A DNA stretch of 64,000 bases from Nymphaea colorata. Its lineage: Eukaryota > Streptophyta > Magnoliopsida > Nymphaeales > Nymphaeaceae. Under the pieces are notes generated by a model that saw only the letters and a program-made list of their open reading frames with translations, did not search any database and was not told the DNA's origin. The DNA lies in NCBI RefSeq assembly GCF_008831285.2, contig NC_045142.1:4843501-4907500 (forward strand). The letters are read 5' to 3'. Positions 39,792 through 46,389 of the stretch are shown here, piece by piece. Numbering within the stretch: position 1 is the first letter of the stretch; every line of letters begins with the position of its first letter. Position numbers and translations under genes: made by a program.

Positions 39792-42700
39792 CTAGCCAAC
39801 TAGCATGTGAAGTAAGATAACCGAGCCCACTGGTACTCCAACGATGATCGGCTTCATATTTCTTACGCCATTTGTTGGTGACGGACTTGGATTGCCTTCG
39901 GTGATGTCGTTTCCTGTTATACTGGAAAAAGGAGATAATTAAAAAGACTCATCCCGTGCTATATATGGATGAAATATTATTACCCAATTATAGATATCAT
40001 ACTTTTACTTCGCCTTCGCCTTCGCCATGCCATGTATGGGATACCCAAGTTACAATAACCATATCTTTAGTTTGCATATAGCATTTAATGGTATCCAACC
40101 ACCCAAGGCATGCTTCTCTCTCTCTGACACACACAAAAATATGTAGATCACCATGCTGTGTCACTTACGTTAGTGTCACTTACGTTAGTTTTATTTTTTT
40201 ATTGCCTGCCACTGATGCCGGTAAGGATCCAGTGAAACTATTGTATGTCAGGTTCCTGCAACGAGTCAATGGGAATCTATTATACTAAGTCCAATTGTTC
40301 AATTGTTCAGTAAGCAAACTTGCATATTTACACTGTACGATTGAACTTGCTTACTTGCATATTTACACTGTACGATTGAACTTAATAAGCACCAAGACCA
40401 AGACCATGTTAGGAGATAGGATGGTGGGTGGGGCTTCAGGTAGGCACGGAGCTACATGTGAGCATGTGTAGGCAATTGTCTATACAGTCTAATAAAGATT
40501 TCTGATTTACATATTGATTAAACACAATTTTTTGCATATCTACATATAAAATGCTCCTTAAATAAACAGTTATTGCCCCTCAACGATATTTTATCCATCC
40601 ATTGATAATCCACTTGGAAGCCCTCTTATTAGTCATGGTCTGGCTAGTCAGGGGCGGAGTTAGGATTTTGTTAAGGGACGGGCCAAACAAATGCGTGAGT
40701 TGGGCCAAGAGAAGCGACAGGTAGGGCCAAGAGAAGCGATGGGTCGTACCAAACTAAAAAAATTTGATTTTTTTAATGTAATTTTTTGGCCTTCATTAGA
40801 ACTAAGAAAAGCAACACAGGACTGATTAGGAGAAGGCAGTAATGAATTGAAGTTTTTTTGTGAAGACATGCTGTTGACAACTTTAAGTTTGAGATGAATT
40901 GGCTTTGACCAATTATTGAATCTTTTTAGTTTATTTTTTTTCCGTATAATAAACTCACAGCTCTTTCAAGTGAGGAAATGTTCCCAAGAACTCTGGGATA
41001 TGTCCACTCAAGCTGTTGTTACTCAAGTCACTGCAAGATCAAAGTTGACACTGATCAGTGAAGCTCTATCTAATCAATTAAGCAAGCTAAAATCCAAATC
41101 AGCATGACTCTGTTTTACGCACATTATCTCAAGCGCAGTCAGGCCGCTGAAGTCTGGAAGGGTGCCGTCCAAGCCTAAACCATTAAGATGACTAACAAAG
41201 CCATGTCAAATGGAAAAAATATATAAATTATTTCCTTTATGACCAAAATCTTATTCTTGTATCCGATAGTAATGTACTCACAGTTCAGTCACTCGTGGTG
41301 GATCGTCCGTGCTGCAGTTGAGCCAGTCCCAAGTGAATCCCGGGGGAAGACATGGATCACCTGCCCAAGACCGAAGTGTTTGATATGAACCCTGCAACAC
41401 CTTCAACGCCTTCACTGCAAACCAATTTCAAAAAAAATGGTAAACGGATCTTGTGCATTTTCACTGCAATTTCATGAATGTAGAAAAGCGGATAAACTTT
41501 TTGCAATTATCTGGAAGCAATAATTTGTGAGGAAGAAAAAAGTAAATCCTTTTACATCTTTCTTTCTCCTACATTTGAAAGGGGCATGGACCAAAGCGAT
41601 AATGGGAAGTAATTATACACCTGTCCTTTCCTGAAGTGAGAATGCATTAGATGCCAGCCACTCGTACAAGGGCAACAAATATTAATTAAAATTAAAGAAA
41701 TAAAAGAACCAGAGTTTGCATTGTGCCATGACATCTACCTTGAAAGTGGGCCGGAGTCTCATGGATAGTGGGCCAGAACATTTCTCTCTCTCCCTCTTTC
41801 CCTCTCATGTTTATATTTTTGTATCTATTTATATCATTATATTTAGGCTAAAATCTTATGAACCACACATAAAAATTTATATATATATATATATGGTTCC
41901 TGATATGCCTTTGATCTCCCTCCCTGATTTCACAGTTGAAACCAGGTGCCAACGGCGGAAGCATATATTGGCAGGTAATGGCCGTAGCTAATAGTACCTT
42001 TTGTTTGTTGTGCTAATCTGTTTTAAGACTTCTTTTATGTGTGTTCATTGCTCAACAATTTTATTATGCTCATGAGAAGTTGAAATTAATGCACTATAAG
42101 AGTTGATTGAAAGTACATATATTCTATGACCTCTTTCTCTCTCTATCTCTCGCTTATATATATATATAGCATGAATGTGCTCAATATTAAAATGTTTAAT
42201 ACGGTACCAGTATAATGACAAAAATATGACAACATTTCATGCATAGATCAGATTTAATAAACGACTTCCGTGTGCGAACTACATAAATATAAGGACTAGG
42301 TAAAGTAACTATCAACTATTGTTGACGGTCGACAAAGTTTCATATACAAAAATACAATGACAGCTTCAACTTAGATTTTGAAGTGCAATGTTACTCAAGA
42401 ATCCGCATTAATCAAATTTAAGTAGATCAAAATGCTTACTTTCACGAGGTTTTATAATCTATATCTTCATATATAGACTAAGTGCTTACAAAATTATATA
42501 TGCAGACTAGTTATGGGTTGGCTGATAAATATAATTGACGATTCATAAAGTGCCCCATGTCTGTTGCACTGTCACAATTCCATATATATGTGAGAGAGAG
42601 AGAGAGAGAGAAAGTGGTTATCTAAATCTTAGAAATCAATAGTCAGGCCCAACCGAAAGTTGGAAGGAAACAACAAACCGATAGACGACGGAGAGGGGAG

Positions 42701-45700: not shown

Positions 45701-46389
45701 GACTTGCTGGATGAAGTCTCCACGGTCGCCCAAAGGTTGCCATCAAATTGAAGATCGAAGGATGGCGGCGATGACTTCCCATCGTAGTTGCCGTAGAAGA
45801 AGTGTGCTCGAACCATGTGTTTCCTTCCCGTCGCCACGCCTGGTATCAAGTAGCAGCTCTTCTTTTGGGAGGGAAAGTAACGGAGGGTCTGGTGTTCTTG
45901 GGCGTATGTATTGGTAACCTGGACCCTCGCAGTTTGGCCTGTGTTAATATAACCGTCGTCGCCGACCCATTTCATGCCCAGGCTGTCATTGCGCGTACCC
46001 GTTGCTCCACAATCGATGTTCAAGAACACTAAAAAAAAAAAAACAAGAAACTCACCAGTTATGATGTATGAAGTGCATCCTTCCGGGGTGGTTCTATAGT
46101 TCCTTGAAATCAAATTCTGCCCTTGTGTGAAAGCAAACGGTCCGCCAAAGCATGCCACTTTTGAAAAACATTAGTTACAGATAGGTAGAAGATCAAGGAG
46201 GGGAACTAAAAGCAGAAATTGTGCGGGAGTATCCATGTGGATCAATCTCGTGTGGATTTCTTCATTAATGAAGAAACAAAAGAAACCCAAGGTGAGGTCA
46301 TGAGAACACTTACGTTTATCAGCACTAATGGCATAAAAAAAATGGAGGCCAATGCATAAGCTAAAAAGGAGCATGGAGGTTGCTGCCAT
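39792..46389 (-). CDS. G4: malectin-like/LRR receptor-like protein, intact, no kinase
   Basis: Eight exons: 46389-46314, 46028-45503, 43209-42719, 41414-41282, 41191-41123, 41030-40959, 40255-40184, 39921-39792. All introns are GT-AG, phases fit and the frame is open for 522 residues. Residues 1-25 are a signal peptide (MAATSMLLFSLCIGLHFF), about 26-364 the malectin-like domain (SIDCG start, [24 protein letters not shown]), 365-408 the linker with [11 protein letters not shown], 409-479 three LRRs (LSNNSLSGHIPEFLG is the clearest), 480-522 NPSPSPTNG then MKPIIVGVPVGSVILLHMLVG and TAG. No cytoplasmic part follows the hydrophobic end, which fits a GPI signal (candidate attachment residues N/G in SPTNGVRN) or a bare membrane tail. 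By family knowledge such ectodomains act in cell-surface perception with a kinase partner; partner and ligand are unknown. I chose the ATG at 46389 because it aligns with the sister genes. Confidence 0.88.
43985..44006. repeat. (TA)n microsatellite in G4 intron 2
   Basis: Short TA run at the place matching the longer runs of G1 and G3. Confidence 0.7.
44200..44520. other. GC-rich island in G4 intron 2
   Basis: About 320 bp clearly richer in G+C than the surrounding intron and absent from the matching introns of G1-G3. It contains a tandem duplication of about 30 bp around agatagggaagggagatttt (44413-44465). Open frames on both strands look incidental. It is probably an insertion of unknown type. 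Confidence 0.45.
44847..44904. repeat. Long palindrome in G4 intron 2
   Basis: ggatgctacattgagtt (44847-44863) and its exact inverse complement (44888-44904) flank a TA run, so about 58 bp can fold into one nearly perfect hairpin. Flanking similarity is imperfect. Its shape resembles a tiny MITE or the (TA)-cored element in G1. Confidence 0.7.

Follow-up and report, generated by a model that had tools for sequence, protein, structure and literature searches.

Why should a run of genes encoding the ectodomain of malectin-like, leucine-rich repeat (LRR) receptor kinases end in a short hydrophobic stretch and a stop codon? The question is raised by a 64 000 nt stretch of the Nymphaea colorata genome (positions 4843501-4907500 of NC_045142.1, here C5), referred to below as the window; coordinates are window positions unless they carry a prefix such as C5 or are given in Mb. 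An earlier note, made from the sequence alone, had read these genes as a tandem family of kinase-less malectin-GDPC-LRR proteins with a glycosylphosphatidylinositol (GPI)-type C-terminus. We consider it about 80 % probable that they form a branch, recently truncated and for the most part decaying, of an array of subgroup I LRR receptor-like kinase (LRR-RLK) genes, in which one member, G4, is a possible decoy at most. As judged by comparison with kinase-bearing sister genes, the 'GPI-type end' is the beginning of a receptor-kinase transmembrane helix that a small insertion interrupts.

G4 lies on the minus strand (46389-39792, with the ATG at 46389 and the TAG ending at 39792), and its eight exons, separated by seven GT/AG introns with consistent phases, join into an open frame of 522 aa. 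The exon model gives, in order, a signal peptide called by inspection (exon 1, 46314-46389), a malectin-like domain (exons 2 and 3, the first and second malectin exons, at 45503-46028 and 42719-43209), the GDPC exon (exon 4, 41282-41414), three LRRs (exons 5 to 7, 41123-41191, 40959-41030 and 40184-40255) and a short hydrophobic end. Exon 8 (39792-39921) holds a Pro/Ser/Asn spacer, the cut transmembrane helix and the TAG at 39794-39792, with at most one Gly after the hydrophobic end. Pfam matched Malectin_like (E 1.2e-75) and LRRs in G4 and returned no match to a kinase domain; among solved structures it matches LRR receptor ectodomains along its LRRs and, weakly, the malectin domain of ANXUR2 (E 0.007). 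The eight-exon malectin-GDPC-LRR ectodomain that the earlier note had described is thus upheld, by exon joining and by Pfam.

The hydrophobic end followed by TAG, also part of that description, is present in all four copies whose end falls inside the window (G2, G3, G4 and G6), all on the minus strand. Three of these four truncated copies are disabled: G2 (10816-15574) has no match for the GDPC exon, G3 (20090-25802) has a frameshift in the second malectin exon, and in G6 (62316-64000, its 5' exons lying to the right of the window) the GDPC exon is interrupted by an in-frame stop; G4 alone is intact. When profile models of the five kinase exons K1-K5 were run against the window, none matched below E 0.1, the best scores being E 0.13 for K1, 0.8 for K2 and 0.33 for K4, with zero matches for K3 and K5. 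Splicing past exon 8 of G4 into a kinase was considered and rejected, as the ancestral donor is destroyed and K1-K5 were not found in the window. The window also holds the 5' part of another minus-strand copy, G1 (1-5474), the end exon of which reads past the hydrophobic stretch and, with K1-K5, lies to the left of the window at C5:4842131-4836379; its kinase pieces, when joined, match PF00069 and PF07714. The description 'kinase-less' therefore holds for G2, G3, G4 and G6 and fails for G1, and a tandem family of such proteins is not confirmed here, since G1 bears a kinase, G2, G3 and G6 are disabled, G5 is a fragment and G4 is the sole intact copy.

The wider setting was examined by a PF12819 profile search of the genome (408 Mb, 783 contigs), which gave at least 128 matches, a lower bound with 121 of 222 candidates scored. 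Many of them belong to an array on the minus strand of C5 (4.59-5.30 Mb), within which the window falls; other groups of matches are on C1, C4, C6 and C7. Sequence was examined from C5 4.58-4.81 Mb and in pieces around and beyond the window, and copies found there are named for the position of their first malectin exon (A4646, A4704 and so on). The copy counts leave out A4807 (no match for the end exon), fragments near C5:4.732 and 4.764 Mb, plus-strand malectin pieces in C5 4.58-4.81 Mb, the piece L037 (zero matches), copy L034 and two weak end-exon rows from outside C5. In L034 the end exon (C5:4922389-4922357) is broken off before the helix.

Five array copies, A4646, A4704, A4724, A4751 and A4786, carry an end exon of the G4 type that reads on, for example as LLLVG-CVVNARLLSQHLRPSLNVVFENNVG followed by GTAAGT, and kinase exons K1-K5 lie downstream in all five, though the exon of A4786 encoding the HRD motif has an in-frame stop. 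Across six kinase-bearing copies, the residues that form the end of G4 make up the beginning of a transmembrane helix, after which come a juxtamembrane segment and the GTAAGT donor, and in the copies at 4.939 and 4.976 Mb the frame likewise continues into a juxtamembrane segment with GTAAGT. At the corresponding point the GTTGGTTGTGTCGTC of G1 has become GTTGGCTAGCTGTGTCGTC in G2 and G6, a net gain of 4 bases, and GTTGGCTAGCTGTCGTC in G3 and G4, a net gain of 2 bases, each putting a TAG in frame. The TAG falls part-way through the helix, so that the full transmembrane helix and the juxtamembrane segment are absent from G2, G3, G4 and G6, and the GTAAGT donor is lost in all four. The juxtamembrane codons persist out of frame, being recovered by tblastn in G2, G3 and G6 (E 0.002-0.005); in G4 they are visible in the DNA and in DNA alignments as a remnant of the ancestral exon at 39675-39791 on the minus strand. 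Ahead of the cut helix, G2 and G6 have a spacer lengthened to NGNPSPPPT-like repeats (10819-11100 and 62319-62528) relative to that of G3 and G4.

With G1 as the query, homology to the truncated copies stops inside the intron between the juxtamembrane segment and K1, at +926 in G2 (the last piece, up to this point, being weak, E 0.002), +863 in G6 and +561 in both G3 and G4. K1 of G1 starts at +1478, and nothing later in G1 matches any of the four; as a control, five sister kinase genes align with G1 across the kinase exons at 72-83 %. With other sisters as the query, the matches found farther out were to a dispersed element of about 105 bp that occurs in five sister kinases, within the K2-K3 intron, and also upstream of array genes (window 6737-6838, 16795-16896, 27021-27110 and 56029-56130). 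A fragment of this element downstream of the window copies had been considered as a relic of the kinase half, but because it is also found 1.3-2.2 kb upstream of start codons it was treated as dispersed and not used as evidence.

The junction itself, TGCTARTTGGCTAGCTGT, occurs five times in the 408 Mb genome, in G2, G3, G4 and G6 and at C5:5025157, all in the one C5 array, and its reversed control does not occur in the genome at all. A search of the genome for the end exon gave 27 rows, the 25 on C5 corresponding to 22 distinct exons after three second pieces were merged. A search for the HRD kinase exon, in which the best 150 of 1204 candidates were scored, placed such an exon 1.8-4.1 kb downstream of 13 of these 22 and near none of the five junction copies. 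All five are among the nine end exons lacking an HRD exon (Fisher p 0.005, for copies that are not independent). The other four, at C5:5002310, 5156452, 5240375 and 5256478, have short open frames without the TAG junction; the lack of an HRD exon near them among the candidates scored is provisional, and they are possibly further independent truncations.

We propose that G2, G3, G4, G6 and the copy at C5:5025157 derive, by loss of the 3' part, from a subgroup I LRR-RLK gene of this large tandem array. In a single ancestor, a few bases inserted in the transmembrane exon would have shifted the reading frame and created the TAG partway along the helix, the splice donor of that exon would have been lost and the kinase exons deleted from within the next intron, in whatever order, and the truncated gene would then have been copied within the array, most of the window copies now being disabled.

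G4 does not seem to have the same history over its whole length. Its exon 2 is 91 % identical in DNA to that of the kinase-bearing A4724 and 81-82 % identical to those of G1-G3, while its exon 3 is 91-93 % identical to those of G1-G3 and 90 % to that of A4704. When G4 was divided into 400-bp tiles and compared with eight units, the eight tiles from 48100 to 44901, covering the upstream region, exons 1 and 2 and the start of intron 2, had their best match in A4704, A4724 or A4751, and for the 11 tiles covering 44100-39701 it was in G1, G2 or G3. The two tiles between them, in intron 2 (44101-44900, minus strand), were unmatched in all eight units, as were the two at 48900-48101. Trees of exon groups conflict in line with a mosaic G4, with modest support at several nodes. 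As the upstream region and exons 1-2 resemble kinase-bearing copies, G4 was probably made by recombination, and an exchange inside intron 2 is the simplest account of the pattern.

Constraint on the truncated copies, as judged from the ratio of non-synonymous to synonymous differences per site (pN/pS), reads as weak to moderate, that is, weaker and not absent. Three pairs of kinase-bearing copies gave 0.49-0.57 (p 0.001 or less). G2-G3 gave 0.61 (p 0.031) and the pairs with G1 gave 0.57 (G1-G3, p 0.009), 0.70 (G1-G2, p 0.053) and 0.84 (G1-G4, p 0.3). Over the unmixed 3' exons, G3-G4 (0.79, p 0.24) and G2-G4 (0.76, p 0.17) are indistinguishable from neutral, and the pairs with G6 range from 0.52 (G4-G6, p 0.13) and 0.58 (G3-G6, p 0.044) to 1.76 (G2-G6, p 0.94). 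Several observations tell against a branch that is simply decaying. Over all exons, G3-G6 (0.55, p 0.0002) and G4-G6 (0.58, p 0.0004), pairs that include older, mosaic exons, are near the kinase-bearing pairs, and some truncated copies may thus remain under selection. G3 and G4 have end exons without a single amino acid difference over 43 codons, at a synonymous divergence (dS) of 0.10, and G4 is intact. Nor is decay special to the truncated branch, because three of the 13 HRD exons on C5 have an in-frame stop (C5:4777952-4778143, 5181496-5181687 and 4971933-4972100).

These observations bear on whether G4 is a functional truncated receptor, tethered or secreted, that acts as a decoy or as a dominant-negative partner of the kinase-bearing neighbours with the same ectodomain. 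Its reading frame is intact, and its upstream region and exons 1-2 are like those of kinase-bearing copies, so that similar expression is possible; kinase-less malectin-LRR proteins of the RLP4 type are functional in other plants (PMC13143284). If expressed, G4 would supply an ectodomain that stops after a short hydrophobic stretch and lacks a cytosolic tail, and it would at most compete for a ligand or partner with the kinase-bearing relatives. The G3-G4 and G2-G4 values, indistinguishable from neutral, speak against such a role, one intact copy in four would not be unlikely by chance, and the residues before the helix are basic (VRNMKP), as in receptor kinases and unlike those of the SOBIR1-binding LRR receptor-like proteins (RLPs) described in PMC10834447. 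A functional G4 of this kind is, in our estimation, unlikely.

Less likely still is that G4-type genes encode working GPI-anchored malectin-GDPC-LRR co-receptors, in which selection keeps the hydrophobic end as a GPI signal. A cut helix without a cytosolic tail can serve as a GPI signal, and the signal peptide, the lack of more than one Gly beyond the hydrophobic end and the identity in protein of the G3 and G4 end exons are all as expected of such a protein. GPI anchoring of G4 may thus occur. Against a co-receptor stand the disabled state of three of the four window copies and the homology of the end to a receptor-kinase helix that an insertion has interrupted. By a strict omega rule (small residues, 13-32 from the end), G3 and G4 have no site; sites are present in G2 and G6, 30-31 residues before the end. 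A GPI signal evolved as such is not supported: the sister copies show the start of a helix, cut in the window copies by inserted bases that make TAG. The tails have 17-18 hydrophobic residues, with a His in all four truncated copies, and on a hydrophobicity scale they sum to -0.12 to +1.51, compared with -2.5 to -4.7 in the helices of six sisters, which are the more hydrophobic; the tails are thus weaker as membrane helices, but this is no argument against a GPI signal. The suggestion that the architecture is undescribed stands only in part: malectin-LRR proteins without a kinase are known (PMC7783096, PMC13143284 and PMC10834447), and no GPI-anchored malectin-LRR protein was found described in a literature search limited to open-licence papers.

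That the kinase half is present in the plant and was lost in assembly is very improbable, even with tandem arrays hard to assemble and a kinase in the neighbouring G1, because the TAG junction and the lost donor, which a misjoin would not create, lie within continuous stretches in four window copies with differing flanks, and the junction recurs in a fifth copy.

The truncated branch that we favour for the window is not the only kinase-less part of the array. A4602 (C5:4603133-4598014) is intact, with eight exons and 523 aa, whereas the first exon of A4595 (C5:4595059-4589868) was not located; both lie outside the window, and from C5:4580000 to their ends none of K1-K5 gave a match at E 1e-3. 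The two are 52 % identical, with a pN/pS of 0.57 over 491 codons (p 1e-9) and of 0.60 over the last 45 codons (p 0.08). Both finish in a short hydrophobic C-terminal end, SSTSVLAWTVLTFFLMLIFL then stop in A4602 and TASVVSWTLTTSFLLFIPLL then stop in A4595, and as these differ from the window junction the pair is a separate event. A4602 has an omega candidate, S-S-T, 17 residues from the end, and A4595 has candidates at 26-28, its tail sum of +1.16 being no better than that of G4. A4602 and A4595 are an older, diverged pair of kinase-less malectin-GDPC-LRR genes under constraint, with a candidate GPI tail, and the GPI idea fits them better than it fits the window copies. A kinase-less output may even have arisen twice, first in this pair, with a shared GPI-like tail and a role as surface-anchored partner or decoy of the kinase-bearing copies, and recently in G2-G6, where the cutting of a receptor-kinase helix would have left a similar end and recombination would have placed the intact G4 behind the promoter of a kinase gene, a tentative scheme that we regard as rather doubtful.

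Among the remaining features, G5 (51063-54057, minus strand) is a fragment comprising a signal-like exon, most of the first malectin exon and part of the second. Between G4 and G3 lie open reading frames at 27638-30463 (minus) and 34294-36199 (plus), which by eye we take to be Copia-type-like and LINE-like, respectively. On C6, the first malectin exon is repeated at 6995560-7002198 in units about 3 kb apart; these units (6.995-7.002 Mb) were considered as kinase-less genes and set aside, since inspection by eye of the minus-strand frames of a 1.7-kb piece lying between two of the units revealed no further recognisable exon.

Comparison with known systems puts G4 close to subgroup I LRR-RLKs (MLD-LRR-PK, the relatives of IOS1 and SYMRK). 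It shares with them the malectin-like domain, the GDPC exon and a short run of LRRs in the same order, and the array members that are its direct sisters belong to this kinase type; unlike them, G4 and its kin lack a kinase and retain just the beginning of the transmembrane helix. Malectin-LRR proteins without a kinase form a named superclade, MLD-LRR (PMC7783096), malectin-RLPs have been counted across plant genomes (PMC10834447), AtRLP4 is classed as one of them (PMC9603095), and RLP4 is a SOBIR1-binding protein with a part in resistance to insects (PMC13143284). RLP4-type proteins resemble G4 in having a signal peptide, a malectin-like domain and LRRs and in lacking a kinase (PMC7783096, PMC13143284), but RLP4 is a conserved gene with a full transmembrane domain, whereas the helix of G4 is cut and the nearest relatives found for G4 are the kinase genes of its own array. 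The kinase-less DUF26 proteins (ddCRRSPs and PDLPs) differ from G4 in having another ectodomain and in being old and conserved, whereas the loss of the kinase in the window looks recent and most copies are disabled. The LORELEI proteins are not known to have a malectin or an LRR domain. As GPI-anchored partners of malectin receptors such as FERONIA (PMC7783096), they are like the role that had been proposed for the window genes, and unlike G4, which has no clear GPI signal.

The window genes are thus a new case of a known process, and they offer a base-level view of a tandem receptor-kinase array shedding its kinases, through insertion, loss of a donor, deletion, copying and exchange with intact neighbours. 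They also counsel caution, as a last exon that closes with a hydrophobic end and a stop can hold a truncated transmembrane helix, recognisable only from sister copies. If A4602 and A4595 do prove to be GPI-anchored, malectin-LRR receptors would gain a related type of partner, as FERONIA has in the LORELEI-type proteins.

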